A DNA stretch of 64,000 bases from Fibrobacter intestinalis (GCF_900167415.1 NZ_FUWU01000012.1:1-64000), one strand, 5' to 3'. Counted from the first letter of the stretch, positions 21,101-36,396 are shown. Made by a program: numbers and translations. The notes: generated from the sequence alone by a model not told the origin.

Positions 21101-21197
21101 CCACGTTGTGATTTGGTACACAGAGAGTGGTTCCCCTTGTATCCGGTCCGAATGGATGTGTAGAAATTATGTTTTATGATTGGAGAAATCTAGCAGT

Positions 21198-22718
21198 ATG
21201 ACCCTAAAGAAAGTATTCGTAGTTCTTGCCGGGACTATGCTCTTCGCGGGATACGCTTCGGCAAAGGCTATTAACGTGCCGGGCGATTACGTAAAGATCG
21301 CAGACGCTCTGGGCAACGCAGACGCTGGCGATACCATTTTTGTCAAGCGCGGAACGTACAACGAAAACATTACCCTGATCATGGGCGTTGTTCTTAAGGG
21401 TGAAGACCCTTTGACGACGATTATTGATGGCGGGCGTCGTGGGCCTACCGTAATGGGAACGTCTGGAGCGGAAATGTCGCACTTTACCATTCGGAATGGT
21501 ATAGAAGGCATTCTCTGCGAAAATGCGGCTCCCTATATCCATCATTGCTATGTCATGGACAACAAGGCGACTGGCATCGCCGCGTTCATTTCTCTCCCTA
21601 ATTTGCGCAACAATGTCGTGTACGGCAACCGCTGGTCCGGCATTCTTGCTTGGGGCGCAAAGTCGCTGGACGCTTATGTGGAACAGAACGTTGTTTTGCG
21701 GAATGGTTATTCGGGACTTACCCTCAAGGGACCGACAAATCTTGTTGCCCGGAACAACATTTTCATGGAAAACCATTATTATGGTGTCTTTGCCGATCCT
21801 GCTGCGGGTCAGACAAAGATTGAATACAATAACATCTATAAGAACTACTACCCGTTCAATCGCTTTATTAAGGTAAACCGGACGAATGTTTCGCTGGATC
21901 CGAAATTCGTTAATCCTTCGCTCGGCAAACCGAATTTTTACTGCAATTCCAAATCTCCGATGTTGAAACGTGGCAAGGGCAAACTGGATATCGGTTTGCT
22001 TGCTCATGACGTTCTCCCTGAAAAGGAAGAAGAAGTCAATGAAACGCGCAATCCGGATACCGATGGTGACGGAATGTGTGATCCATGGGTTTCGGAAGAA
22101 AATGTTTTGGATAAGTATTCGGCGGTTTGTGCCGGCATTGACCAATGCCCGGAAGACGCTGAAGATGTGGATGGCTTCCAAGATGATGATGGCTGCCCCG
22201 ACCCGGATAATGATCGTGATGGCATTTGCGATCCGTGGGTAGAAGCTGGCGGTCTGCTGGATAAGTATGCTCACACCTGTAAGGGTGCAGATGCTTGCCC
22301 GGATAATGCGGAATCCTTAAATGGTTATAAGGATGAAGATGGCTGCCCGGATGAAGTTCCCGTTCCGCCGAAGAAAGTATTCATTCTTGAAGGTGTTAAT
22401 TTTGAATCTGGCAAGGCTGTCATCACAAAGGATTCTGAAGTTTCCCTCCGTAAGGTTATAGACATTATGGAAGCTTTCCCGGAAATTTCCTTTGAAATCG
22501 TGGGCCACACCGATAATGTCGGTAGTGCAGAAAAGAACAAGAAGCTTTCTGCGGAACGTGCTGAAGCGGTGAAGACGTTCTTCGTGGAAAACGGAATTGC
22601 CGAAAATCGTATGGTGACCCGTGGTGCCGGCGATACACAGCCGAAAGCTTCCAACAAAACGCCGGAAGGCCGTGCCCAGAATCGTCGCATTGAATTCACT
22701 CGCACGGACATTAAGTAA
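21198..22718 (+). CDS. Outer-membrane OmpA-family protein with beta-helix and TSP3 repeats
   Basis: 506 residues. The order is signal peptide (1 to about 23, ending YASA), a right-handed beta-helix of pectate-lyase-like coils (about 25-260: IHHCYVMDNKATGI, LRNNVVYGNRWSGI, VARNNIFMENHYYGV), a calcium-binding TSP3-like segment (about 285-385, with two DxDGDGxCDPW-type repeats and DEDGCPD) and a C-terminal OmpA peptidoglycan-binding domain (about 392-500, with GHTDN and NRRIEF). The helix would face outward and the OmpA domain would anchor to murein. It is followed 15 bases later by the barrel-TPR gene. The ATG at 21198 is chosen because a signal peptide follows directly. Confidence 0.85.
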   Translation: MTLKKVFVVLAGTMLFAGYASAKAINVPGDYVKIADALGNADAGDTIFVKRGTYNENITLIMGVVLKGEDPLTTIIDGGRRGPTVMGTSGAEMSHFTIRNGIEGILCENAAPYIHHCYVMDNKATGIAAFISLPNLRNNVVYGNRWSGILAWGAKSLDAYVEQNVVLRNGYSGLTLKGPTNLVARNNIFMENHYYGVFADPAAGQTKIEYNNIYKNYYPFNRFIKVNRTNVSLDPKFVNPSLGKPNFYCNSKSPMLKRGKGKLDIGLLAHDVLPEKEEEVNETRNPDTDGDGMCDPWVSEENVLDKYSAVCAGIDQCPEDAEDVDGFQDDDGCPDPDNDRDGICDPWVEAGGLLDKYAHTCKGADACPDNAESLNGYKDEDGCPDEVPVPPKKVFILEGVNFESGKAVITKDSEVSLRKVIDIMEAFPEISFEIVGHTDNVGSAEKNKKLSAERAEAVKTFFVENGIAENRMVTRGAGDTQPKASNKTPEGRAQNRRIEFTRTDIK

Positions 22719-22733
22719 GGAGAAAGTTAGACG

Positions 22734-24977
22734 ATGACACGCTTTAGCTTCATCAAGACAACAGCTATTGGGCTTATCTGCACGAGTGCAGCGTTTGCTT
22801 CTCCCTCGTACGCCCCCCATAAGTATCAGCAGAACGACTGGTTCGGCGAATTTGGCAGCAACAATACTTCGATGTATGTGAACCCCGCAGGAATCGCTGA
22901 AACAGATCAAATAGAACTTTCTATCGGCTTTTTCAGCACGATAAGTGGCGAAGCTTCTCAGGAATACGGTTCGATTACGATTCCGTTCGGCTATGATCAT
23001 ACATTAGGCATTTCATTCTTTGAAAACGGTGCCGATGTGGATGGCGGCTATTCCTATGTGGAAAACGCCTATATGATTGGTTACGCTTATCGTCTGATGC
23101 ATTGCTTGGCTTTGGGCGTTGACCTCTCTATCCTTCAGATCAACCAGTTCGATGCGAATAAGCAATTGACTTTGGGTGCTGATGTGGGTATCAGTTGGAA
23201 TCCGATTTCCAACTCCCGTTTTGGTAGTCTGACTGTTGGTGTTGCTTTCCAGAACGCTGTAGCTCCGGCTATTAGTACGGAAGCGGACAATTCCTCTTAT
23301 CATTTTGTATTCATGGGAGCCGATGAATCTTACAAGGTTCCGAGCAACTTGAACTTTACCCTGTTCTATCGCGGCTTTAACCGGATGCTGGAAGCCAAAG
23401 CGGAATTTTCCGTGATTGACGTCCTGCATGAAAGCTCTGAAGGTGGAGACGGAACAAGTTTGGAAACGAGCTTTACCTTGACGTATTATCTGAGTACTCA
23501 TTTGGGTGTTCGTCTTCGCTTTACAAAGGAAGGCTATCCGGTTCTTGGTGCTACAGTCAATGTCAAAGACGTCACGATTTTCCGCTATCTGGCTCTGGAT
23601 TTGGAAATGTCGCACGACGATATTGTTGAAAAGAAAAACCGTGGCTTCATCTGGGCTGTAAAGCTGACTTCTCGTTTTGGCAATACGCGTGAAGAAAACA
23701 TCGGTGAAGATCGTTATCGTCGTTTGAAAATCGAACCGGAAAACGATTATCGTGCTGCCATGCGTTTATATTTGAACCGTCAATTCCTGGAAGCGGCTTA
23801 TGCTTTTGGCAAGGTTCAGACGAAGTATCCGGCATTCCATTTGGTGGACCAAGCTGCTTTCTATAAAGGCAAGTCCTTTGAAAATATGCGTATGCACAAA
23901 GCTGCCAAAGCGGTTTATGAAGATGCCATCAAGCGTTATCCGCAGAGTGACCAACGCGCCAAGTATCATTTCCAGTTGATGAATATCGATTATAAGGAAG
24001 GCAAATTCAACGATGCAATGGTGAAGTACCAGTATATTGTTCAACATTTCAGCGAAAGCGATGTGAAAGCGGATGCGGACTATATCGCTGGCCAGATTAA
24101 GTTTGAACAAGGGCTTTATCAAGAATCCATCGACCTTCTTTCTGCGATTCTTCCGGGTAACGCTAACTATTTCTATGCGCGTTATACTATGGGCATTGCC
24201 AACAGCCGTATGGGCAAATGGGATGAAGCCGAAAACTGCTTCCGTGACATTATCGATCAGCCGGCTTCCAACCAATCCGAAATGGATTTGCAGGATGCGG
24301 CCAAGGTCAAACTGGGACATATCTATTTCTCGGGTGACAATCCCAACATTCCAGAAGCGGCTGGGCTTTATGGTCAGGTAAAACCGGGTTCTCCTGTTTA
24401 CGATGAAGCGATGTTGGCTCTGGGATGGTCTTTCTTGAAGGTGAATAAACCGGATGAAGCGATTAAATTTGCTCAGTGGATCATCAAGAATATGCCGGAT
24501 TCCTTCCTCCTGTCCGAAGCGTATCTTGTTGAAGGCTATTGCTACTACATGAAGAAGGATTTTGATCGGGCTGAAAAGTCTTTGAGCAATGCGGAAAAAT
24601 TGACAGAACAGCCCGTGGTTTCTATGGCTGCTCGCGATAGTGCCCGCAAAGTTTATGAAGATAACGAAGCGCATTTTGACAGTGTACAAGCAAAAGCTTT
24701 GGATCTTTCCCGTCAGCTCCCGACTCCTCGTGTTCAGATGAAACGCGATCAGCTCCGTCCAGACTTTGACAAAGCGAATCAGGCGATTGACGATTACGCG
24801 AAATTTATGCAGCGTTCTCAACAGAGCGATCGTTTTGAATCGAACCGTAAGCGAGTTTTGGAAGACGCCGGATTCACGTTGGCGACGGTGAAGACCAAGA
24901 AAGCCGAAAGCGGGGGATCTGGATCGACAAATTCTCAAGAACTTCAGCAGTTGGAAGAATTGGAAGAATTGGAATAA
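22734..24977 (+). CDS. PorV-like outer-membrane barrel fused to TPR domain
   Basis: 747 residues. The signal peptide covers about 1-22. A PorV/FadL-like beta-barrel region (about 23-305) opens with SMYVNPAGIAE, the typical start of such barrels, and has alternating aromatic strands. From about 335 to 690 come tetratricopeptide repeats (EAAYAFGKVQTKYP, AAKAVYEDAIKRYPQSD, DAMVKYQYIVQHF). The tail is rich in Ser, Gly and Leu-Glu-Glu. The barrel would sit in the outer membrane with the TPRs in the periplasm as a docking scaffold. It has an AAGGAG site and is in one operon with the OmpA-family gene. Confidence 0.75.
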   Translation: MTRFSFIKTTAIGLICTSAAFASPSYAPHKYQQNDWFGEFGSNNTSMYVNPAGIAETDQIELSIGFFSTISGEASQEYGSITIPFGYDHTLGISFFENGADVDGGYSYVENAYMIGYAYRLMHCLALGVDLSILQINQFDANKQLTLGADVGISWNPISNSRFGSLTVGVAFQNAVAPAISTEADNSSYHFVFMGADESYKVPSNLNFTLFYRGFNRMLEAKAEFSVIDVLHESSEGGDGTSLETSFTLTYYLSTHLGVRLRFTKEGYPVLGATVNVKDVTIFRYLALDLEMSHDDIVEKKNRGFIWAVKLTSRFGNTREENIGEDRYRRLKIEPENDYRAAMRLYLNRQFLEAAYAFGKVQTKYPAFHLVDQAAFYKGKSFENMRMHKAAKAVYEDAIKRYPQSDQRAKYHFQLMNIDYKEGKFNDAMVKYQYIVQHFSESDVKADADYIAGQIKFEQGLYQESIDLLSAILPGNANYFYARYTMGIANSRMGKWDEAENCFRDIIDQPASNQSEMDLQDAAKVKLGHIYFSGDNPNIPEAAGLYGQVKPGSPVYDEAMLALGWSFLKVNKPDEAIKFAQWIIKNMPDSFLLSEAYLVEGYCYYMKKDFDRAEKSLSNAEKLTEQPVVSMAARDSARKVYEDNEAHFDSVQAKALDLSRQLPTPRVQMKRDQLRPDFDKANQAIDDYAKFMQRSQQSDRFESNRKRVLEDAGFTLATVKTKKAESGGSGSTNSQELQQLEELEELE

Positions 24978-25052: not shown

Positions 25053-28000
25053 ATGAAAAAACTCTTTTTGATCGCTTTATCCGTGTTTGTTTGCGCTGGC
25101 GTATCCTTTGCGGATCCGTGCAAAGACAAAACGAATGAAGCTAAAAATATGCTTGCCAAGTGCAAAGCAATGAAAAAAGGCTCGTCCGAATACAAGCAGT
25201 GTGCTAGTTCTTACAACTTGTTGAAGACAAAAGCGCAGCAAGCTTGCCGTTCTGGAGGCATGGACGAAAATGAAATGCAGGCCGCTATTAAACAGTGGCG
25301 TACGCAAGTGGATCGCTGCAAAGGAAAGCAAAGTTCTCGTTGCGCGAGTGCCCTTCAGCAATTAGGCAACTACCAGTATCGCCTGGAAGAAAAATACCAG
25401 GTCGATAAAATGGTTCAGTATGAAGAAGATGTTGCTTGGTGCGAAGACCGCGACAACGAACCGGCTAAGTGTAAAAATTTAGGTTCGGGACCGAAAGTGG
25501 ATCACTCCAAGTCCTTGGGTTATTTCTTGGAGTATATTGATAAGTATCCGAAAGAGACTAGAACTCCAAACGTGATGTATCAGGCTTCTTTTGTGTATGA
25601 AGCAAGCGGCGAAGAAGAAAAGGCTTATAAGCTGCGGATGCGTTTAGTGAAGGAGTTCCCGGATAATGGGCTTGTGCCGAAAACGTGGTTACGTATTGCG
25701 GAATACCATTTCATGAACAGAAAATTCCGCGATGCTATCGATGCTTATAAGCGTGTGACTGGTTTTGAAAATTTGACGGGTAAAGAAGCCGCGCTGGCCA
25801 TGTACCATTTGGCTGAATCCTATTACAATATCGCTGAATATGAAATTGCCGCAAAAACGTATTACACATACATTGTTGGTTCCGATGCGGGTAAATACCC
25901 GAACGATTTGCGCTTGGAAGCGATGGACTTTATGGCCGCTTCTTTCTCGGATATCGATGATGGTGTTCGTGTCGCCGCAAAATTTTTGAAAGACAAAAAT
26001 GTGAAATTTAAAGACTCGCTCTATTATCGTATCGGTATGAAGAATAAGGATCATGACCGTAACGAAGAAGCGGTGCAGTCTTTCAAATATTTGTTGGACA
26101 TCAATCCGGATTATGTTGATGCCCCGCTCGCCGATGTTGCAATGGTTGAAATTCTCATCATTCAGCAAAAATTCGACGAAGCCCAGGAACAACGTAAACT
26201 TGTCGTGAAGCGTTATAGCAAGAATTCTTCTTGGTTTAAAAAGAACAAGCAGTATCCTAAGTCTGTGGAAAATGCGGAAAAAGCTATTCGTGCTGCAATG
26301 CTTGATATTCCGCAGTATGATCATTCTCAAGCTGCAAAATTGATGAAAGAAGGCGATACAGAGGCAGCTAAAAAACGTTATGCGGTTGCTATCAAGGGAT
26401 ATAATGATTTCTTGAACCAATACAAGAACGAACCTTCTTGGGATGAATATAAAGTGTATGCGAATTTGGCTCTTGTTTATCAGGAAATGGATCAGTTTGC
26501 CAAAGCCGCCGAAATGTTTAACAAAATTGTGGACGCGGATACAAATCGCTATGGTCGTCGGGCTTTGGGTTCTGCTGCTCCCTACAAGAAGGAAGACGCA
26601 GGCTATAATGCCGTCTTGATGATGGACAAGGCTCGTGTTACCGCGCAGCAGACTAAAGTTCAGGACGATCCGGTTAAGGCTTACGAGCTTCCGGAAACCA
26701 AAGCGTATTTCGCTCAGGTTGATAAGTATATGGCCAAGTTTGCTTCACAGAAAGAAGCGGTTGAATTGGCCTATAACGCCGCAATCGTTCGTTATCAAGC
26801 TAAACAATACAAGCAGGCTGTCGTTGATTTCCGCAATCTGAAAACGAATTATCCGAACAATCAATACATTCTTCTTATCAGCCGTATGCTGGCGCAATCG
26901 CTTTTGGAATCGGATCAGCTGGATGAGTCCCAAAAGGAATTTGAATGGCTGTTGAAGCAGTACACCGAAGTCAAGGCGACTCGCAACGATTCGATGGCAA
27001 AGATTATCCGCACTTCGATTGCCGCAGTCCTTTTCCAGAAAGCGGATCGTGCGGTGAAAGCCGGACAATTTGAACAGGGCGCTGCCGCTTATTTGGATCT
27101 GGTTAAGCACTATCCCAAAGAAGCTTTTGCAGACAAGGCTGTGTTTGAAGCGGCTACTGCTTATGAAAAGGCCAATAATTACGACAAGGCCGCCCAGACC
27201 TTTATGATGCTTCCGATGAATTACGGTTCCTCGCCGCTCACCATTAAGGGTATCCTTCGTGCTGCTTTGGCTTACAAGAAAGCAGGTAAGCCAGAACAAG
27301 CTGCACAGACATTCCTTTTCATTACGAATAATTTTGAAAAAGATTCGATGGCCTTTGCGGCGATTGGATTTGCCGCTACGACTTATGATTCGATTCCGAA
27401 TAAGAAGATGGCTGCGCAGACCTATGAAATCGCTTATAAGAAATATCCCAATCACGAAAAAACTCCGGGAATGCTTTATAGCGCTTGCTTGACTTACGAT
27501 GAAGCAAAACTTCCTGAAGAAGCTATTCGCTGTTCGAAGGATCTCGTTCGCGATTATCCGAAGAGTTCCTACGCTCTCGATGCGGCCTTTAGCATTCCTA
27601 TCGCTTATCAGAACGCCAAGCGTTGGAACGAAGCCGTGGAAGCTTATATTTTCTTTGCCAAGACTTATACGACGGATAAGGAAAAGCTGATTGCCGCTTA
27701 TATTGGAACCGCTCGCGCTTATCGTGAATTGAAGGACGATAAGAATGCTGCCGTTTATTATAAGAAGACGATTGAAGCTTATGACAAGTATGGTCTGCAA
27801 ATTAAGAATGCGGATCCGGGAGTGCCGGCGGAAGCGGCTTTCTATCTGGGCGAAATGGAATTTGCCAAGATGGACAACGTTCAGGTTTCTGGCAAACAGA
27901 AACAAAAGGACGCTGCGGTCAAGCAGTTGACGGAGATTTTGAAGAATGCGGTCAGTCATTACTCGAAATCGGCGACTTATGCTTCGGAACAGTGGACTTT

Positions 28001-28802
28001 CCGTGCGACGAACAAGATTGGCTTCCTTTTTGTGACTATGGCGGCCAAGATTCGTGAACAGGAACTGAACGGAAAAACAGATGAAGAACAGTTTGCCGAA
28101 CGAATTGGCATTGTTCAGCAGTTGCCGGGTTATTATGATCAAGCGCAGCCGATTTTCCAGAAGAATATCGATTTGGCGCGCGATCAGGGCTTCTATAACG
28201 CCGACGTCATTGCTGCAGAAGAAGGTTATATCGAAATGTATTACCAGGGCTGCGCCGTGTTTGTCGAAGTTGGAGACGCTTTTGCCAAGTCGCCGCTGCC
28301 GGATAGCGTGGAAATAGTTACGCAATATGTGGAATATGAAGGCATGACCAAAGAAGACGCTGAAATGGCTGCAGGCGAAGATTTGCAGGCTTATCGCGAA
28401 GAATTGGAAAGCCGGTCGAATGCGGCTCGCGAAGCTGCGGTTCCCCGTTGTGCTACAGGCATCCGCGCTTCGGAACATTATGGCATTGACAACCAATGGA
28501 CTCAAAAGCTGTATGACCTCCTTCGTGAATTAGACGATCAGAACGAAGCTCTTCAGATCAAGATCACCAAATTTGATGCTTCGAAGTTGTTCCAAGACCC
28601 GAGCTACTTTAAGACAAAGGCTCGCTTGGAACAGGTTCGTTCTTCCAAGGTCATGACTCAGCAGGAACAGCTGGCTACGTATCAGGAAATTTTGAAGGAT
28701 GCTCAGGCTGAAAATGAAAAGCTGCGTGCAGAACTCAAAGAACTCCAGGCTCGGCTTGCTCCGCCGCCATCAGCGGCTCCCGCTGCTCCAGTAGCTCCAT
28801 AA
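25053..28802 (+). CDS. Giant periplasmic TPR protein of the envelope cluster
   Basis: 1249 residues. The signal peptide is 1-20 (ending VSFA). The first mature stretch has several cysteines (about 23-100) and could be disulfide-bonded. At least a dozen TPR or TPR-like units follow between about 160 and 930, for example FRDAIDAYKRVTGFE, QAAQTFLFITNNF and EAYIFFAKTYTTDK. The C-terminal part has a coiled coil (about 1205-1235) and a Pro/Ala tail. No enzyme motif is seen. It resembles in design the TPR proteins of the myxobacterial gliding cluster (AglT/GltE type), a structural scaffold in the periplasm. Confidence 0.75.
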   Translation: MKKLFLIALSVFVCAGVSFADPCKDKTNEAKNMLAKCKAMKKGSSEYKQCASSYNLLKTKAQQACRSGGMDENEMQAAIKQWRTQVDRCKGKQSSRCASALQQLGNYQYRLEEKYQVDKMVQYEEDVAWCEDRDNEPAKCKNLGSGPKVDHSKSLGYFLEYIDKYPKETRTPNVMYQASFVYEASGEEEKAYKLRMRLVKEFPDNGLVPKTWLRIAEYHFMNRKFRDAIDAYKRVTGFENLTGKEAALAMYHLAESYYNIAEYEIAAKTYYTYIVGSDAGKYPNDLRLEAMDFMAASFSDIDDGVRVAAKFLKDKNVKFKDSLYYRIGMKNKDHDRNEEAVQSFKYLLDINPDYVDAPLADVAMVEILIIQQKFDEAQEQRKLVVKRYSKNSSWFKKNKQYPKSVENAEKAIRAAMLDIPQYDHSQAAKLMKEGDTEAAKKRYAVAIKGYNDFLNQYKNEPSWDEYKVYANLALVYQEMDQFAKAAEMFNKIVDADTNRYGRRALGSAAPYKKEDAGYNAVLMMDKARVTAQQTKVQDDPVKAYELPETKAYFAQVDKYMAKFASQKEAVELAYNAAIVRYQAKQYKQAVVDFRNLKTNYPNNQYILLISRMLAQSLLESDQLDESQKEFEWLLKQYTEVKATRNDSMAKIIRTSIAAVLFQKADRAVKAGQFEQGAAAYLDLVKHYPKEAFADKAVFEAATAYEKANNYDKAAQTFMMLPMNYGSSPLTIKGILRAALAYKKAGKPEQAAQTFLFITNNFEKDSMAFAAIGFAATTYDSIPNKKMAAQTYEIAYKKYPNHEKTPGMLYSACLTYDEAKLPEEAIRCSKDLVRDYPKSSYALDAAFSIPIAYQNAKRWNEAVEAYIFFAKTYTTDKEKLIAAYIGTARAYRELKDDKNAAVYYKKTIEAYDKYGLQIKNADPGVPAEAAFYLGEMEFAKMDNVQVSGKQKQKDAAVKQLTEILKNAVSHYSKSATYASEQWTFRATNKIGFLFVTMAAKIREQELNGKTDEEQFAERIGIVQQLPGYYDQAQPIFQKNIDLARDQGFYNADVIAAEEGYIEMYYQGCAVFVEVGDAFAKSPLPDSVEIVTQYVEYEGMTKEDAEMAAGEDLQAYREELESRSNAAREAAVPRCATGIRASEHYGIDNQWTQKLYDLLRELDDQNEALQIKITKFDASKLFQDPSYFKTKARLEQVRSSKVMTQQEQLATYQEILKDAQAENEKLRAELKELQARLAPPPSAAPAAPVAP

Positions 28803-28820
28803 AATCTCTTTTGAACAAGG

Positions 28821-28858
28821 AAAATCCCGCGAACGCGGGATTTTCTGTTTGTTTTTTG
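28821..28858 (+). terminator. Strong intrinsic terminator after the giant TPR gene
   Basis: AAAATCCCGC (28821-28830) pairs perfectly with GCGGGATTTT (28835-28844) around GAAC. TGTTTGTTTTTT follows. It separates the three surface genes from the motor genes. Confidence 0.85.
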
Positions 28859-28968: not shown

Positions 28969-29589
28969 ATGTCTAAAATGCTTGAATCCTTCAACCCGTC
29001 TTCTGATGGTTGGCAGTTCATGTGGATCATCCTGGTGGTCGGTCTGATTGGTCTCGGCTTCTCGGTTGAACGTTTTATTTATATCGTCGTGAAGAGCGCT
29101 AAGGGGCGTGCCAAGTTCTTGAATCAGTTTGGTCAGCTCATCAGTGCCAAGCAATACGAACAGGCCTTTGATTTGGCGAATCGTTCTAAGCTCCCCATTG
29201 CGAAGGTTGTCGCCGCTATCGTCAGCAATCGTGATGCAGGTCGTGAAGCGATGCAGAATGCTTCTGATGCAGTCTTCCTTACCGAAGCTCCTCGTCTTAC
29301 TCGTTATATTTCGGTTATTTCCGTGATGGCTTCTATCTCCACTCTTCTTGGACTGATGGGTACGATTTACGGTCTGATCTTTACGTTCGATGCTGTGGCT
29401 AACAAACCGGCTGCTGAACGTCCGAAGGCTCTTGCTGATGGTATTGCTATCGCTATGGGAACGACTCTCCTCGGCCTTATCTGCGCTGTTCCGCTGCTCG
29501 TTCTTGTTGGCATCCTGAATATGAACAGCGAACGTCTGATTCAGGAAATGGAAGAAAAAGGTCTCAAGATCATTAACGCCCTGTCGTAA
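28969..29589 (+). CDS. TolQ/ExbB/MotA-family proton channel subunit
   Basis: 206 residues from the ATG at 28969, with AAAGGAG eight bases upstream. Three membrane helices lie at about 16-38, 113-140 and 155-178. The family hallmarks are ISTLLGLMGTIYGLIFTF and GTTLLGLICAVPLLV. Such subunits form a pentamer around two TolR-like helices and couple proton flow to motion in the periplasm. Two TolR-like genes and a TonB/AgmX-like gene follow with 2-40 base gaps, so these four genes encode one motor. Confidence 0.92.
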   Translation: MSKMLESFNPSSDGWQFMWIILVVGLIGLGFSVERFIYIVVKSAKGRAKFLNQFGQLISAKQYEQAFDLANRSKLPIAKVVAAIVSNRDAGREAMQNASDAVFLTEAPRLTRYISVISVMASISTLLGLMGTIYGLIFTFDAVANKPAAERPKALADGIAIAMGTTLLGLICAVPLLVLVGILNMNSERLIQEMEEKGLKIINALS

Positions 29590-29626
29590 TTGTTGATAAA
29601 AGACAATTATTTAGATAGGAGATAAA

Positions 29627-30514
29627 ATGGCAAAAGAATTCAAGAAACCTGGAAAGCCTGAAGAACCGGATTTGCTTCCGGCGATGGGCTTGTTTACTAT
29701 TCTGATTCCGATGCTGCTCTCCATGACATCGTTCCAGAAGTTGGCTGTTGTAGAAGTCAATTTGCCTGAACGCAGTATGATGCAGATGGATGACCAGACT
29801 CCTCCACCTCCGGATGAGCAAGCATTGAATCTGTCCTTGGCCATTACGAATGAGTATCTCGTTATCGGTGCGCGCGGCGGTTTTCAACCCAATGTCTATT
29901 TTAAGGAATTTTGGGTTTTCCGTTGCAAATCCGATGGACAGCTCGTCAAGTATGCCGCCGAGGATGTAAAAACCCTTGTCAATTCCGGCTCTGCGCCTAA
30001 ATGCAAAGACGGAACTGAAATGGATAAAGAAAAGTACACCTATTTGATCGAAAGAATCGAATTGGATATGATTGAGAAAACATCCGAAGAAGATGTTGGT
30101 CGTCTGATGTGGGGTGTTTATACTTCTCAGGAAGAAGCGCAGCCGGATAGCGTGCTTGTAGATGGCAACAACAACTTCCTCGCTATCGTTGGTGAAGGCG
30201 AGGGTGGATTGACTCCTCCTCCGGCTCTTAAAAAACCGGGTGCGGGTGCTGGTGTTGCTACCCTGGCTCAGAACTCCGCACGCAAGCTGAAACCTGAAGA
30301 TGCTGCGAAGTTGATTATCTATCCGCTCTCGGCGTATGATGAAATCGCAAAGCAGCTGATTGCTATTCATACGGCCTTTATCGATCTGGAAGATGTGGAC
30401 AACATCATTATCGTTGCGAATGACGATGTCCAATTTGATAAGATTATCGCCCTGATGGACCGCGCAAAATCCGCTGGTTTTGTCAAGGTTAACCTTGCAA
30501 AGTTGGGAGGCTGA
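29627..30514 (+). CDS. TolR/ExbD-like protein lacking the membrane aspartate
   Basis: 295 residues, longer than normal TolR. The single N-terminal membrane helix is LLPAMGLFTILIPMLLSM (about 16-33). The residue at the place of the proton-carrying Asp is G21. The periplasmic part is enlarged and contains a PPPP stretch (about 57) and a Pro/Gly/Ala linker (about 200). It ends in a TolR-type fold (AYDEIAKQLIAIH, VQFDKIIALMDRAKSAGF). The SD is AGGAG, seven bases upstream. It overlaps no gene and is followed two bases later by a second TolR-like gene that keeps the Asp. Confidence 0.8.
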   Translation: MAKEFKKPGKPEEPDLLPAMGLFTILIPMLLSMTSFQKLAVVEVNLPERSMMQMDDQTPPPPDEQALNLSLAITNEYLVIGARGGFQPNVYFKEFWVFRCKSDGQLVKYAAEDVKTLVNSGSAPKCKDGTEMDKEKYTYLIERIELDMIEKTSEEDVGRLMWGVYTSQEEAQPDSVLVDGNNNFLAIVGEGEGGLTPPPALKKPGAGAGVATLAQNSARKLKPEDAAKLIIYPLSAYDEIAKQLIAIHTAFIDLEDVDNIIIVANDDVQFDKIIALMDRAKSAGFVKVNLAKLGG

Positions 30515-30516
30515 TA

Positions 30517-31011
30517 ATGGCTCGTAGAATGCGTAAATATAGCGAGGACGTTCCGTTCTCCCTGACTTCGATGATGGATATGATGACCATCATTCTGGTG
30601 TTCCTTATCAAGAACATGGATGCTGAAGGTCAGTTGATTACTCAGGCGGAAAACCTTATCCTGCCGATTTCTACTTCGAAAGTGCAACCGAAAGAAGTTT
30701 CGCTTTCTGTAGTGGTCGATGCTGGCTATGTGGTGGTGGATAATCAGAAAATTATCCCTACGCCTGATGTCATGGCTCAAGAAGACCTCTTGATTACCAA
30801 GGTGGACTCTGTGCTGAAGGAACGGCGCGAGACTGAACGTGAACATGCTTTGAAAGCTGGGCTTCCGGCGGACGAAGCGGGAAACATCATTATCCAGATC
30901 GACAAAAACATCCCTTATGATGTGATGTACAAAGTGATGGCGACGTGTGGTTTTTCGGGCTACACGAATATCTCCTTTGCTGTGATGATGAAGAACGGTG
31001 GAGAGGAATAA
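30517..31011 (+). CDS. TolR/ExbD-family protein with intact membrane aspartate
   Basis: 164 residues. The N-terminal helix SLTSMMDMMTIILVFLI (15-31) carries D21, the proton-binding residue of TolR/ExbD. The periplasmic domain ends with DVMYKVMATCGFSGY. It pairs with the TolQ-like channel. It starts two bases after the preceding TolR-like gene and ends one base before the AgmX-like gene. Confidence 0.88.
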   Translation: MARRMRKYSEDVPFSLTSMMDMMTIILVFLIKNMDAEGQLITQAENLILPISTSKVQPKEVSLSVVVDAGYVVVDNQKIIPTPDVMAQEDLLITKVDSVLKERRETEREHALKAGLPADEAGNIIIQIDKNIPYDVMYKVMATCGFSGYTNISFAVMMKNGGEE

Positions 31012-31012
31012 T

Positions 31013-31954
31013 ATGGCAAAGATGACAAAGAAGAAGGTTCAAGATCCTTTTGTAGCGTCCTTGATGCCGGAATCCGACAAGCGTTTCGCTGGTGTCGCGG
31101 TTATTTCTTTCATTGTTGCAATTTCGTTCTCCCTTTGGGCTTCCATGTATGAAGCTGTCGTGGACGACGTCATTTTCGAAGAAACCGGTGCGGAAGAATT
31201 GACGACAACCATGAAGATTGAAGACAAGAAGGAAGAGAAGAAGGAAGAGAAGAAGAAAGAAGAACCGAAAAAGCCTCGTAAGAAGGCCGGCGGTGGCGGA
31301 AAACCTCGTGGAAAGGGACAGCCCAATGCTCCTCAAACCCGTGGTGTTTTGAAGCTCCTGACGGCTCAGACGACAAAATCCAATTATGCAGCTTATGATT
31401 TGATGAGAGACCAAAAGTTCTCTAAGGATATCAATAAGGTGCTGAAGGATGTCGCGGGTCTCCAGACTACGGGTAAAACCGTTCTTGGCGGTCGTCGCGG
31501 CAAGGCTGACGGTGGATTTAACGAAGGGTACGCTGAAGGCGGTTCCGGTGGTATCGGAGATGGCCTCGGTGGACTTCTCGGCGGTGGCGGCGGTGGCATT
31601 GCTACACGTGCCAAGGGCAATATCAAGACGCCGTCGGCTCGTGATATTGACATGGGCGCTGGTGGTGGCTCTCGTTCTGCGGCGGATATTATGAAAGTTG
31701 TCCGTCAGCGTACGCCGGGTCTTCGTCACATCTACAACAAGTACTTGAAAAAACAGCCGGGTTTCTCGGGCAAGGTGACTCTCCGTTTCACGATTGCTCC
31801 GGGCGGCGACATTATCAGTATCTCTGTAGCCTCTTCGTCGACAGGCTTTGCCGAATTCGACAATGCGGTGAAGAATACGGTAAAGCGCTGGACCTTTAGC
31901 AAGGTCAAGTCGGGAAATACGACGGTAACGATTCCGTTTACGTTCTCGGAATAA
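31013..31954 (+). CDS. AgmX/PglI C-terminal domain (TonB-like) energy coupler
   Basis: 313 residues from the ATG at 31013, behind GAGAGG. There is one membrane helix (about 28-46). Next comes a charged Lys/Glu-rich and Gly-rich periplasmic spacer (about 65-110), and a Gly-rich region around 165-200 (GLGGLLGGGGGG). The C-terminal domain (about 220-313) matches the TonB-like fold of AgmX/PglI proteins (RQRTPGLRHIYNKYLKK, GKVTLRFTIAPGGDI, WTFSKV). It probably carries motor energy across the periplasm to the outer-membrane partners, as TonB and GltJ/AgmX do. It is the last gene of the cluster and a long terminator follows. Confidence 0.85.
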   Translation: MAKMTKKKVQDPFVASLMPESDKRFAGVAVISFIVAISFSLWASMYEAVVDDVIFEETGAEELTTTMKIEDKKEEKKEEKKKEEPKKPRKKAGGGGKPRGKGQPNAPQTRGVLKLLTAQTTKSNYAAYDLMRDQKFSKDINKVLKDVAGLQTTGKTVLGGRRGKADGGFNEGYAEGGSGGIGDGLGGLLGGGGGGIATRAKGNIKTPSARDIDMGAGGGSRSAADIMKVVRQRTPGLRHIYNKYLKKQPGFSGKVTLRFTIAPGGDIISISVASSSTGFAEFDNAVKNTVKRWTFSKVKSGNTTVTIPFTFSE

Positions 31955-31974
31955 TTCTAGAACAGATGGAACTG

Positions 31975-32011
31975 AATGAGCTGGAAGCATCGCTTTCGGC
32001 TCATTTTTTTT
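31975..32011 (+). terminator. Long intrinsic terminator closing the motor operon
   Basis: A 14-bp stem (31975-31988 with 31992-32005, two G-T pairs) around ATC is followed by eight T residues. Between here and 32233 no gene is seen. Confidence 0.9.
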
Positions 32012-32233
32012 ATGCTCCCAAATTTTGACGGAGCTTCTTCAATTTTTGTTTTGGACGGAGTTTTAAAATAGTAGAGGTGATCTGAGGGAAGAAAATTTAG
32101 GATTTGTTTTGAAAAAGTCAGGCATTATACGCTGTTGGAATCCAAGGGACTTTTGAACAAAGGACTTTTTGTTTATTTTTGCTTGCGAATTTATAAAACA
32201 TGAATTAGTTTTATGAAAAAATAGGAGTTGACA

Positions 32234-33520
32234 ATGAAATTGAAAACAGCTGCGGCTTTAGGTCTAACTGTTGGTATCTTTGGCGTGGGGTCGGCTTTTG
32301 CGACTTTTGCCCGTGTGGAATCTATGGGCAAGAATACGACGTATATTATGGATGACGTCAGTATTTTTGATAATCCGGCAAATATCAATTTGTATCCGAA
32401 CTATTTGATTGGCGGTTTTGGACCGTATCTGGATGATGTGGAAACGGGGACGAACAAGGATCCGCAGAATCCTACTTTTGGAGGAATTTTTTCGCTCAGT
32501 TTGGGCAGCGGCGATTCACCTGATCCCCGGATTTCTATCGGCGGTCTTTTTGGACGTAAGGATGCGACTCTTTTCGGATTTTTGCCGGATTACTATATCG
32601 ATGAAAATGGCAACAAACATAAAGTTCCTAATACGGTAACAAATTTTGATGGCTTTTTGGGCGGAACTCTTTCGAATGGCAATGCGATGGGCTTGCACAT
32701 TTACATAGCACATCAGGATGGCGGAGACGAAACGAAAAGTGGGGAATATCAGGTTGATCAGAATGCCTATGCTTCCATTATTCGGGCGGATGCCGGTATA
32801 AATCTCCAGCTTTCCAACACGATTGATTTTGAATTGTCTGGAGGCCTTGCACGAGTTCAGTATGGACCGGAGCATAAAAATTTCTTTGATGACGGAGACT
32901 TCTCGTATTTGGTAAATTCTCGTGCGTTTTTTGCTTTGGACAAAATCGACGGCGAGATTGTGCCTGCAATGAATGCTCATTTTATTAAGGCTCCGGGGAT
33001 GAAGGATACTCATGCCCAGGTCGGCCTTGGGATCAATGTCGGTTTAGATCGGGGATTTTTCTGGTTAGGCGGTGATTTCGTCTGGAATAAGAAGAAAGCC
33101 CGTGATTGGATTGTGGACTACGATAACGGCCTGACGACTTATGATGCTCAGGATGAAAACGGATATTGGGACGAACGGAAGGACATTGGAGGAATTGTCA
33201 GTTTTGGTATTGAACGCAATATCTGGTTTGACTGGTTCGTCATTCGTGTCGGTGGGCAAAAGGCGATTCTTTACACGGAATGCGATCAGGATTCGCGTAA
33301 TCAGGGACGGTCTGGCATTTGCACGGAAGACGGCACCTTTTTCTCGACAAACCCGGTGGGTAACGGTAAAATGGATGACCACGTCGGCTGGGGTTTTGGA
33401 ATCAATATCGAAGAAAAGCTGAAAATTGACGTGACAATTGCAGAGGACTTCTTGTTCCGTAATCCGTTCCAAGGAGAAGGCCGTTGGTTCTCTCGTTTGG
33501 ATGCCACATATTCCTTCTGA
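32234..33520 (+). CDS. Predicted outer-membrane beta-barrel protein of unknown function
   Basis: 428 residues from the ATG at 32234; TAGGAG lies six bases upstream, so an in-frame TTG at 32228 is not used. The signal peptide ends around GSAFA (about 24). The mature part has alternating hydrophobic strands, an early SIFDNPANINLYP motif like that of PorV-type barrels, and a C-terminal aromatic residue (ATYSF), the usual assembly signal for outer-membrane proteins. No specific family is recognised. Confidence 0.65.
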   Translation: MKLKTAAALGLTVGIFGVGSAFATFARVESMGKNTTYIMDDVSIFDNPANINLYPNYLIGGFGPYLDDVETGTNKDPQNPTFGGIFSLSLGSGDSPDPRISIGGLFGRKDATLFGFLPDYYIDENGNKHKVPNTVTNFDGFLGGTLSNGNAMGLHIYIAHQDGGDETKSGEYQVDQNAYASIIRADAGINLQLSNTIDFELSGGLARVQYGPEHKNFFDDGDFSYLVNSRAFFALDKIDGEIVPAMNAHFIKAPGMKDTHAQVGLGINVGLDRGFFWLGGDFVWNKKKARDWIVDYDNGLTTYDAQDENGYWDERKDIGGIVSFGIERNIWFDWFVIRVGGQKAILYTECDQDSRNQGRSGICTEDGTFFSTNPVGNGKMDDHVGWGFGINIEEKLKIDVTIAEDFLFRNPFQGEGRWFSRLDATYSF

Positions 33521-33573
33521 TTTTGTAGGGAGCTTGTTTTTTTCGGAATCTTTTGCTTTCAAATCCCTGCAGT

Positions 33574-33608
33574 AAAAGACGGTTGAGTTTTACTCACCCG
33601 TCTTTTTT
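33574..33608 (+). terminator. Intrinsic terminator
   Basis: AAAAGACGG (33574-33582) pairs with CCGTCTTTT, with TGAG and CTCA pairing inside. Six T residues end the structure. It closes the preceding outer-membrane gene. Confidence 0.85.
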
Positions 33609-33619
33609 ATATTTGAAAT

Positions 33620-33988
33620 ATGCGTTTACCCATATTTTTATCGTTTGCTTTTTTGCTTTTGGCGGCTTGTGCTGAACCACGGGAAAATATCGAAGAAAAA
33701 TTGTCCACCTATTTACAGGACGACTTGAAGTTTATGGTTGCTCAGACATTAAAGGCTAGCCAAGACAAAAGTGCTTTGCTGGATTCCCCCTATTATAAAA
33801 TTCGGGAACTGAAATTTTTTGATGAAGCCCATTCTAAAATGTATTCAGCTTATGCCAATGTTGATTTTTATATCTATCGGGATATTAAAATGTATGAACA
33901 GCGAAAATATCGTTATGACAACCACTATTTGCAGTGGGATCGGTATTTGAAAGTGTGGCATTTTGGAAATGATACCGATGAAAAATGA
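33620..33988 (+). CDS. Small lipoprotein of unknown function
   Basis: 122 residues. The signal peptide ends with the lipobox LLAAC (C17), so the mature protein should be lipid-anchored. The rest is mixed, charged and tyrosine-rich (YIYRDIKMYEQRKYRYDNHY). It is not assigned to a family. It lies 56 bases before mreB in the same direction and might be transcribed with the rod-shape operon. Confidence 0.65.
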   Translation: MRLPIFLSFAFLLLAACAEPRENIEEKLSTYLQDDLKFMVAQTLKASQDKSALLDSPYYKIRELKFFDEAHSKMYSAYANVDFYIYRDIKMYEQRKYRYDNHYLQWDRYLKVWHFGNDTDEK

Positions 33989-34044
33989 AAATAGGGCGTC
34001 ATTTTGTTTTTATATTTTAAATAAAATTTAGAAGGAACTTTACT

Positions 34045-35067
34045 TTGTTCGGACTCTTTTCTTGTGATATTGGCGTTGATCTTGGTACGGCAAACACCCT
34101 GGTTCATGTTGCGGGACAGGGAATTGTCATCAACGAACCCACGGTCGTGGCGATGGACCGCAAAAATGACCGCGTGACGGTAATCGGTGGCGAAGCGAAA
34201 AAAATGCTTGGACGCACACCCGGCAACTTGGCAGCCATTCGTCCGATGAAAGACGGCGTAATTGCAGACTTTCAGTTGGTGGAAATCCTGCTTTCTACAT
34301 TCATCAAGCGGGTTCAGAAATATCCGCTCTTTTTGGTAAAACCCCGGGTCGTCATCGGCGTTCCTTCGGGAATTACGGAAGTGGAAAAGCGAGCCGTGAT
34401 CGATGCCGCTCGTATGGCTGGAGCTAAGGAAGTGCACTTGGTTCATGAACCGATGGCAGCGGCAATCGGCATGGGAATTCCGGTAGATGGTCCTGTCGGC
34501 AATATGATTGTGGATATTGGTGGCGGAACGTCGGATATTGCGGTGATCGCGCTGAATGGAATCGCTTGCAACGCATCGGTGCGTGTGGGCGGCGACGAAA
34601 TGGACGAAGCCGTGGTGAACTATTTGCGCAAGACTTACAATTTGGCTGTAGATGAAAATACTGCAGAACAGATAAAATGGCAAATCGGCTCGGCATCTCC
34701 TTTGGAAGAAGAATTGACGATGGACGTAAAAGGCCGCGATGTGATGGCTGATCTTCCGCGGACGATGACGATTACAAGTCAGGAAATTCGCGAAGCATTG
34801 AATGAACCGGTTACGGCGATAGTAGATGCGGTGAAGCAGGCTTTGGCTTCGACGCCTCCGGCTCTTTCTGCGGACATTTTGGATTGCGGAATTATCATGT
34901 CTGGCGGGGGCTCCAAATTGCGTGGACTGGATGCTCGTATTAGCAAAGAAACGGGCCTTTCGGTAAATGTGATCGACGATCCACTGCTTTGTGTGTGCAA
35001 AGGCGCTGCTCGCATTCTGGAAGATTTGGACAAGTACCGTCCTGTTTTGATTGCCTCCACCGTGTAA
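34045..35067 (+). CDS. mreB: Rod shape-determining protein MreB
   Basis: 340 residues from a TTG start at 34045. AAGGA lies about eight bases upstream, and the first residues FGLFSCDIGVDLGTANTL match MreB. The actin-fold motifs are DLGTANTL (phosphate 1), VDIGGGTSDIAVIAL (phosphate 2) and GGGSKLRGLD (adenosine). It forms membrane filaments that organise elongation-phase wall synthesis. It is first in the mreB-mreC-mreD-mrdA-rodA string. Confidence 0.96.
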   Translation: MFGLFSCDIGVDLGTANTLVHVAGQGIVINEPTVVAMDRKNDRVTVIGGEAKKMLGRTPGNLAAIRPMKDGVIADFQLVEILLSTFIKRVQKYPLFLVKPRVVIGVPSGITEVEKRAVIDAARMAGAKEVHLVHEPMAAAIGMGIPVDGPVGNMIVDIGGGTSDIAVIALNGIACNASVRVGGDEMDEAVVNYLRKTYNLAVDENTAEQIKWQIGSASPLEEELTMDVKGRDVMADLPRTMTITSQEIREALNEPVTAIVDAVKQALASTPPALSADILDCGIIMSGGGSKLRGLDARISKETGLSVNVIDDPLLCVCKGAARILEDLDKYRPVLIASTV

Positions 35068-35084
35068 GGGAATTGCTTTAGAAA

Positions 35085-35921
35085 ATGCAGCTGTTCCACT
35101 TGTTAGGAAGTGTCTTAATCAAGGGACACGGATTAGTTCTTTTCTTCATTCTGCTTTTGGTCGGTTTTGGAATCCGCCATTTGGAAAAAGATGGAAAAGA
35201 AACGCTTGTGGCAGGTGCGCTATCTTCCCTTTATTATCCGGCACAGCTGGTCGTTTCTTCGGTGAACCGGATTCATTCGGTCTCTTATGAAAATGATTGT
35301 TTGAAGCGTGAAAACGCGAAACTGAAGATGGAAAGGGACAATTTGCGTGAAGGTTTGGAGGAGGCCAACCGACTGCGGGTGCTCGTTCATTTTGACAATG
35401 TGTGGGATTATCCGATTGTCACTGCTCGGGTTATTGGGCAAAATCCGGGACGCTTTTTGACAACTTTTGTCGTCAATCGAGGGACGGATCAGGGGATTGA
35501 ATTGGACTTGCCTGTATTTACGACGCAAGGGCTTGTGGGTCGTGTTTCTGCAGTATCGAAAAACCATGCCAAAGTTCAGCTGTTGCCAGACCCTTCGTTG
35601 CATGTTTCTATTCTGGTGCAGAGAACTCGTGTTGTCGGATTTTTGAACGGAGGATCGGCAAATTATTTGCAAGCGTTTGTTCCGTCTTATACCGGAGTGC
35701 GGGAAGGTGACACGTTGGTGACTTCGGGACTTGGCGGCATTTATCCGAAGGGAATTGGAATCGGTGTTGTGCGGTCTTTGGAAAAAGGCGATATTGACGT
35801 GGTGACGAATATCGAAGTCGAACCGTTCCAAAAATTTACTCGTCTGGAAGAAGTTTTTATTATGCAGAAAAAACCGGACTGGATTGTACAGGAGATGTTG
35901 AAGAGTGCTAACGTTCATTAA
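35085..35921 (+). CDS. mreC: Rod shape-determining protein MreC
   Basis: 278 residues. There is one N-terminal membrane helix (about 8-24), a coiled coil (about 63-95: NDCLKRENAKLKMERDNLRE) and a periplasmic beta-rich domain with VNRGTDQGIELDLPVF and VTSGLGGIYPKGI. It links MreB with PBP2/RodA. Its end overlaps mreD by 17 bases. Confidence 0.92.
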   Translation: MQLFHLLGSVLIKGHGLVLFFILLLVGFGIRHLEKDGKETLVAGALSSLYYPAQLVVSSVNRIHSVSYENDCLKRENAKLKMERDNLREGLEEANRLRVLVHFDNVWDYPIVTARVIGQNPGRFLTTFVVNRGTDQGIELDLPVFTTQGLVGRVSAVSKNHAKVQLLPDPSLHVSILVQRTRVVGFLNGGSANYLQAFVPSYTGVREGDTLVTSGLGGIYPKGIGIGVVRSLEKGDIDVVTNIEVEPFQKFTRLEEVFIMQKKPDWIVQEMLKSANVH

Positions 35922-36396
35922 GCATTTCGTGTGCTTTATTTTGGCGGTTGTTTTGCAGACGACGGTTGCTTCTTGGATAGGTATTAGCGGGCAGGAACCG
36001 GATTTTATTTTGATTTTTATCGTTGTGATGGCGTTGTCGAGAGGACCTGTTGCGGGTATGCTGTGGGGATTTTTTGCGGGATTTTCTGCGGATGTATTTT
36101 CTTCGGTAGATTGGCTGGGTGCTCAGACAATCGCTTTTACCTGCGTAGGATTTGCTGTGGGACAATTGGAAGAGAGGTTTCTACGCTTGAATCTAGTTAC
36201 TAAGGTGACTTTGCTGGGGCTTGCTTTTATGTTAAACGATTTGATTTTTTACTGCATTGTGGGAATTGAACAGGAAAAAGTGCTGACTTTCTTTTTGACG
36301 AATACGCTTCCGGAATGCCTTTACACAATGGTATTTGGTGTTTTTTGCTTTTTATTGCTGAACCGCATTGACCGAGCAACCCGTCGTAATGTCTAA
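35905..36396 (+). CDS. mreD: Rod shape-determining protein MreD
   Basis: 163 residues, about five membrane helices. It begins with GTG at 35905 inside the end of mreC, and GGAG lies about ten bases upstream. GQEPDFILIFIVVMAL and GMLWGFFAGFSADVFS are typical of the family. Its stop overlaps the start of mrdA by eight bases. Confidence 0.85.
   Translation: MLTFIKHFVCFILAVVLQTTVASWIGISGQEPDFILIFIVVMALSRGPVAGMLWGFFAGFSADVFSSVDWLGAQTIAFTCVGFAVGQLEERFLRLNLVTKVTLLGLAFMLNDLIFYCIVGIEQEKVLTFFLTNTLPECLYTMVFGVFCFLLLNRIDRATRRNV

Follow-up and report, generated by a model that had tools for sequence, protein, structure and literature searches.

Fibrobacter is a cellulose-eating member of the Fibrobacterota phylum. 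We analysed a window of 64,000 nucleotides (nt) of Fibrobacter intestinalis DNA (GCF_900167415.1 NZ_FUWU01000012.1:1-64000; genome G000, 3.29 Mb), in which a four-gene operon encodes a TolQ-like channel subunit, two TolR-like subunits and an AgmX/TonB-like force transducer. The first TolR-like protein (TolR1, 295 amino acids (aa)) has Gly21 in place of the proton-carrying aspartate (Asp), and the second (TolR2, 164 aa) has Asp21. Sequence comparisons across the phylum support the Asp-less TolR1 as a fixed trait of Fibrobacterota. The most likely reading, which we hold with moderate confidence, is that these genes specify a TolQ5:TolR1:TolR2 motor with an obligate heterodimer as its axle and a single proton site. 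The genes of the operon are:

28969..29589, + strand: TolQ/AglR-like channel subunit (P0003; 206 aa; PF01618, 1.7e-22).
29627..30514, + strand: TolR1, the Asp-less TolR/ExbD-like subunit (P0004; 295 aa; PF02472, 35.1 bits; enlarged periplasmic domain).
30517..31011, + strand: TolR2, the Asp-bearing TolR/ExbD-like subunit (P0001; 164 aa; PF02472, 53.8 bits; motif Pro replaced by Ser).
31013..31954, + strand: AgmX/GltG/TonB-like force transducer (P0002; 313 aa; NF033768; TonB_C, 2.3e-9).

The order of the four genes, with gaps of 1–40 bases, had been proposed in an initial annotation made from the DNA, and the measured gaps of 37, 2 and 1 nt bear it out. Pfam matches along the operon are MotA_ExbB, ExbD, ExbD and TonB_C, and both TolR-like proteins exceed the ExbD/TolR cut-off of 25.4 bits. 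The C-terminal domain of AgmX/PglI is recognized in the transducer (79.6 bits versus a cut-off of 40), although the full GltG model reaches only 60.6 versus 650. Tol-Pal equivalog cut-offs are missed by the channel subunit (tolQ, 46.8 versus 221) and by both TolR-like proteins (tolR, 22.0 for TolR1 and 18.3 for TolR2 versus 127.3), and GldL and GldM gave no matches at E ≤ 1 among the operon proteins in Pfam and NCBIfam. Two terminator-like sites enclose exactly these four genes:

28819..28846, + strand: terminator-like site 5' of tolQ (12-base-pair stem, T tail; consensus match only).
31974..32006, + strand: terminator-like site 3' of the AgmX gene (15-base-pair stem, T tail; consensus match only).

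Alignment with hhalign places residues 5–56 of TolR1 on residues 7–57 of Escherichia coli TolR; the helix is aligned gap-free, and G21 of TolR1 thus corresponds to D23 of E. coli TolR. TolR2 carries D21 at the proton site, and the glycine and Asp assigned to the two proteins at the outset hold up by this alignment and by conservation. The proton-carrying Asp of PF02472 proteins is thus present in TolR2 and missing from TolR1, which has no Asp or Glu at positions 16–34. An AlphaFold2 (AF2) model of TolR1 (predicted local distance difference test (pLDDT) score 78.5) has its transmembrane helix at 17–34. For the C-terminal periplasmic domain of TolR1, Foldseek matches include TolR (5by4, probability 0.99) and ExbD (8vgc, probability 0.94), with weak E-values; full-length matches to actin/Hsp70-like proteins had TM-scores of about 0.2 and were dropped. 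On the channel side, TolQ T132 and T166 align by hhalign with T145 and T178 of E. coli TolQ, which lie near TolR Asp23 in a cryo-electron microscopy structure (PMC12215075). All 136 TolQ homologues keep the two threonines; the set includes each of the two TolQ copies at the loci with a TolQ~TolR1 fusion described below. The other two ExbD/TolR proteins of the F. intestinalis genome retain the Asp, and neither has a TolR-like gene beside it.

A search for TolR1 over 151 Fibrobacterota genomes gave matches in 138, a few of which (for example, G111 and G139) match a periplasmic-domain paralogue only; a profile search added five more. Position 21 of TolR1 in the first set of loci is Gly in 34, Asn in 22, Ser in 6, Ala in 3 and Cys in 3, with Asp in all 66 TolR2 proteins. 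Over all loci outside one family, f4, the TolR1-type residue is Asn in 72, Gly in 36, Ser in 6, Ala in 5 and Cys in 3 (n = 122), and none of these 122 proteins has Asp or Glu at helix positions 16–34, which rules out an Asp relocated within the helix. Main-set TolR2 proteins have Asp at the site in 117 of 117 cases. Because the Asp-less state is conserved across dozens of genomes and genera, a sequencing or annotation artefact is also ruled out. The initial annotation had singled out Gly21 and the enlarged periplasmic part of TolR1. The absence of an acidic residue is general, but Gly is typical only of the close relatives of F. intestinalis TolR1; Asn is commonest overall and may be ancestral. 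The enlarged periplasmic part is present in TolR1 of the window, but it is not tied to the loss of Asp, because paralogous modules have short Asp-less TolR1 proteins (about 160–220 aa).

The canonical TolR motif (N17, P20 and D23) is divided between the two proteins. Main-set TolR1 retains the Pro in 112 of 121 sequences and the Asp in 0 of 121, whereas main-set TolR2 retains the Asp throughout (117 of 117) and has replaced P20 with Ser (116 of 117) or Ala (1 of 117). Family f4 (G109 and G148) has all three residues in both TolR1 and TolR2, and its locus in G148 is syntenic with the window: a tetratricopeptide repeat (TPR) protein, TolQ, TolR1, TolR2, AgmX, an outer-membrane protein and MreB. 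In the TolR tree, f4 TolR1 and the Asp-less TolR1 proteins as a whole form sister groups (Shimodaira–Hasegawa approximate likelihood ratio test (SH-aLRT) 83 and 90), and a single Asp change suffices. An Asp in homologues of TolR1, which the initial annotation had counted as evidence against its proposal, occurs only in this family; because the f4 protein is a syntenic TolR1, we take the Asp-less state as derived and the proposal as unrefuted. We read the sequences as a duplication followed by complementary specialization of TolR1 and TolR2. The f4 TolQ falls outside the type I TolQ group defined below, so the f4 motor genes may have been replaced. In f4 (loci L140 and L142) the motor genes are long-branched, and L140, in full synteny with the module of the window, has the only Asp-bearing TolR1 that lies beside an Asp-bearing TolR2; L141 and L143 are further f4 clusters, in which two long AgmX-domain proteins are encoded together with a TolR1-like protein that bears Asp, and neither TolQ nor TolR2 was seen nearby.

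TolQ, TolR1 and TolR2 lie side by side in 109 of the 115 loci with readable flanks. The TolQ proteins of types I and IV and the fused TolQ proteins each form one clade (99, 97 and 98, respectively), and the TolR1 and TolR2 trees show module groups parallel to those of TolQ, which supports inheritance of the trio together. The modules fall into four paralogous types that differ in their partners. Type I consists of a TPR protein, TolQ, a long TolR1, TolR2, AgmX and an outer-membrane protein, often followed by mreB. Type II (L172, L173, L177, L179, L180, L182, L184-L186, L188 and L189) has a short TolR1, and a gene for a STAS-domain protein lies between TolR1 and TolR2 in both loci examined for it (L179 and L184). 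Genes for polysaccharide export (SLBB/Poly_export) and for a Wzc-like kinase adjoin all but the short or truncated type II loci, and likewise adjoin the related loci L134-L136. The type II modules are reminiscent of the Myxococcus Agl-Nfs system for spore-coat polymer. Type IV has TolQ, a short TolR1 and TolR2 without AgmX; at seven of its loci (L183:6404-9556, with relatives in L169, L174, L175, L178, L181 and L130) a TonB-dependent receptor-like protein is encoded nearby that itself bears a TonB_C domain, and type IV is possibly a Ton system with the transducer domain built into the receptor.

Type III modules encode TolQ, a TolQ~TolR1 fusion (about 425–438 aa from mature start to stop), TolR2 and AgmX, with secA alongside in 16 loci. 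The fusion is present at 20 loci (L132 and L150-L168). A standalone TolQ lies directly upstream of it in 17 of the 17 loci with readable upstream DNA, and TolR2 lies downstream wherever this can be read. In the AF2 model of the fusion (pLDDT 73.8, 19 sequences), the long TolQ helix ends at residue 211, and a linker of about 27 residues, for the most part non-helical, connects it to a transmembrane helix at 239–255. The fusion joins the Asp-less TolR1 helix directly to the channel protein. A pore built for two helices has no room for five TolR1 helices, and the additional TolQ may therefore reflect a mixed ring of TolQ and TolQ~TolR1 in type III, in which a TolR1 would be supplied from some ring positions only. 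A literature search, with subscription papers mostly outside its coverage, found no published TolQ-TolR or ExbB-ExbD fusion. Among Fibrobacteraceae, three signal-peptide-like proteins (L191, L193 and L194) join a TolR1 periplasmic domain to an AgmX C-terminal domain and have no transmembrane helix, suggesting that the TolR1 and AgmX parts touch; L192 is a related case, and the likewise related L190 has the TolR1 domain alone. L170 and L171 have a short Asp-less TolR1 adjoining AgmX, and neither TolQ nor TolR2 was seen nearby.

The proposed motor would have an axle of one TolR1 and one TolR2 within a TolQ pentamer. Only D21 of TolR2, facing T132 and T166 of TolQ, would exchange a proton; the small neutral residue of TolR1 (Asn, Gly, Ser, Ala or Cys) would leave a permanently uncharged half that fills the second axle place. 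An Asp-to-Asn change in MotB has been described as a protonation mimic (PMC9389320), and as Asn is the commonest residue at the TolR1 site, TolR1 may act as a permanently 'protonated-like' half. In the standard model the two TolR Asp residues swap protonation states in 36-degree steps (PMC12905483), using ten protons per turn; because two Asp residues could not alternate here, about five protons per turn and 72-degree steps would be expected. The AgmX/TonB-like protein would pass the force on to the products of neighbouring genes, TPR and OmpA-domain proteins of the envelope that in Fibrobacter are linked to cellulose adhesion. How the subunits assemble (5:1:1), how large each step is and which load the motor moves are our inferences. 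The asymmetric heterodimer put forward initially gains from the phylum-wide Asp-less subunit, its almost invariable pairing and its co-inheritance with an Asp-bearing partner of complementary motif, and the TolQ~TolR1 fusions; to call the design unusual was an overstatement, as a two-TolR motor is known (AglR/AglQ/AglS).

Several observations weigh against this heterodimer. The 5:1:1 assembly is proposed from genes and sequences, and genes of separate complexes can also remain adjacent. According to a 2026 review (PMC12905483), the Asp is 'absolutely required' and the pair of TolR Asp residues trade protonation states, so that an axle with one Asp may not run. Family f4 has Asp in both subunits, and its placement outside the Asp-less clade is moderately supported (SH-aLRT 83-90) and involves long branches. 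At a few loci (L170, L171 and L065), a TolR1 gene occurs with no TolQ or TolR2 in its vicinity.

The alternative that survives best, although we consider it unlikely, is that separate homodimeric complexes share the same TolQ, with TolQ5-TolR2(2) as the working motor and TolQ5-TolR1(2) as an inactive complex for storage, anchoring or regulation. Each protein has its own transmembrane helix and a TolR-like C-terminal domain, and the tandem exbD1 and exbD2 genes of Xanthomonas have partly separate roles (PMC3551730), both of which would suit such a division. However, the complementary split of Pro and Asp, with one change per line, suggests paired use; a pentamer made exclusively of TolQ~TolR1 would hold five TolR1 helices; and the fusion is always accompanied by standalone TolQ and TolR2 where these are readable. 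Less probable again is a position for TolR1 off the axle, as a periplasmic adaptor beside the channel and between TolQ/TolR2 and the AgmX transducer. Such an adaptor would be consistent with the TolR1-AgmX domain fusions that lack a transmembrane helix, with the enlarged periplasmic domain of type I and with the two small loci that pair TolR1 with AgmX in the absence of TolQ. Yet the TolR1 helix shows strong conservation (M20, L26 and F36 are invariant in A1), retains the TolR-type motif except for the Asp, has a small residue where it would face the pore, and is the same in short TolR1 proteins without the enlarged domain. Two remaining proton steps, with TolR1 carrying protons on another acid, are very improbable: at the cytoplasmic helix end, 100 of 121 main-set TolR1 proteins have Asp at position 15 (D15), where canonical TolR has Asn, but D15 lies six residues from the site and is Asn in 20 of 121, hence not an obligatory replacement, and E35, at the periplasmic end, occurs in 42 sequences but would sit at the edge of the membrane, some 14 residues up from the site, and is missing from TolR1 of the window and from most Fibrobacteraceae.

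Extending the one-proton-site heterodimer to all module types, Fibrobacterota may possess a family of natural TolQ5:TolR1:TolR2 motors that serve at least four envelope tasks, with a mixed ring in the fusion type (mainly standalone TolQ plus one TolQ~TolR1); we regard this wider proposal as plausible rather than probable. If true, the mixed ring would have one of its subunits tethered to the axle's silent half and so break the five-fold symmetry of rotary models.

The operon is flanked by genes for envelope proteins:

21180..22718, + strand: parallel beta-helix and OmpA-domain protein, FSU_2396 counterpart (512 aa; OmpA, 4.8e-23; Beta_helix, 2.8e-14).
22734..24977, + strand: protein with TPRs and, judged by eye, a barrel-like N-terminal part, FSU_2397 counterpart (747 aa; TPR matches).
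25053..28802, + strand: large TPR protein, upstream partner and FSU_2398 counterpart (1249 aa; TPR/YbgF matches).
32228..33520, + strand: outer-membrane-protein-like gene, syntenic with the module (weak PopA porin match).

Seven genes of the window agree in order, masses and isoelectric points with Fibrobacter succinogenes FSU_2396, 2397, 2398 and 2400-2403; the three upstream pairs have masses of 55.99 versus 55.97 kDa (FSU_2396), 84.5 versus 83.8 kDa (FSU_2397) and 142.2 versus 146.7 kDa (FSU_2398). The large TPR protein adjoins TolQ-TolR1-TolR2 across the phylum, the 747-aa protein is an upstream neighbour of the module in several families, and the outer-membrane-protein-like gene adjoins AgmX in most type I loci, including those of f4. 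NCBIfam models of GltC, GltD and GltE were unmatched by the adjacent TPR proteins. At 32228-36396 the outer-membrane-protein gene is followed by mreB, mreC and mreD-like genes, and module and mreB are linked not only in Fibrobacteraceae but also in several further families of this class; a Myxococcus review treats MreB together with the gliding motor (PMC9120999).

Proteomics of F. succinogenes on cellulose detected both TolR counterparts as proteins and reported co-regulated changes for FSU_2400-2403 of +1.50-fold for TolQ, +1.46 and +1.73 for the TolRs and +1.22 for TonB; its authors put forward a role in cellodextrin import (PMC6851124). FSU_2396 (OmpA) and FSU_2397 (TPR) have been reported in a multi-protein complex with cellulases. 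A role of the Agl/Glt kind, in adhesion or in transport at the surface, would suit these neighbours at least as well as cellodextrin import, and the F. succinogenes counterpart would tie the motor to cellulose adhesion.

Other known motors set this module in context. E. coli TolQR/TolA and ExbBD/TonB share the channel threonines, the TolR-like helix with a periplasmic domain and the TonB-like transducer, but have one TolR or ExbD gene, a homodimer and two Asp residues; in the F. intestinalis genome, TolQ-TolR-TolA-like and ExbB-ExbD-TonB-like sets occur as well, apart from the module and with the usual Asp. The GldLM motor for gliding and type IX secretion is likewise a 5:2 motor whose axle protein has a large periplasmic part, but the operon proteins of the window match no GldL or GldM family. 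Tandem ExbD genes lie 3' of ExbB in Xanthomonas campestris exbB-exbD1-exbD2 and also in Flavobacterium psychrophilum; Xanthomonas ExbD2 is required for only part of the functions (PMC3551730), Asp loss is unreported there and the AgmX/TPR neighbourhood is absent. On plasmids, tblastn gave no match to TolR1 or AgmX, and the TolQ matches inspected belong to Ton-type systems that have one ExbD each. When genome contigs were scanned for a GC-rich TolQ motif, one Fibrobacterales contig and nothing else was returned.

The closest likeness is to AglRQS-Glt/Nfs of Myxococcus xanthus, in which one TolQ-like and two TolR-like proteins are encoded together, with TPR and OmpA-type partners and a GltG/AgmX-type transducer, to which the TonB-like protein of the window corresponds by its AgmX/PglI domain. 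F. succinogenes, as one member of Fibrobacteres, was placed in the same agl and glt clades as Myxococcus in the study that described the core complex (Luciano et al. 2011, PMC3169522). AglRQS is a gliding motor, whereas the Fibrobacterota module is linked to cellulose through its F. succinogenes counterpart, and no TolQ~TolR fusion was found described in the publications compared. The two-TolR layout is therefore already known; apparently new are the loss of Asp in one subunit, of which we found no published report in literature that mostly excluded subscription papers and in a comparison that did not extend to the AglS sequence, and the fusions. In the textbook view, the two halves of a proton motor's axle both have to carry protons, one after the other. 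MotAB, ExbBD and TolQR are currently modelled with two axle Asp residues that alternate in protonation, with 36-degree steps (PMC12905483, PMC9389320). The Fibrobacterota motor offers a natural test of this idea: one Asp dropped once and kept away phylum-wide through several duplications would show that one site suffices or that the second helix serves some other purpose. For AglRQS, the published Asp tests that we found cover AglQ D28 only, a hand-over-hand idea with two subunits has already been published, and the choice between hetero- and homodimers of AglQ and AglS has been posed as an open question (PMC9389320). Fibrobacterota could provide a natural system for that question, with the TolQ~TolR1 fusions as ready-made probes of stoichiometry and full rotation.

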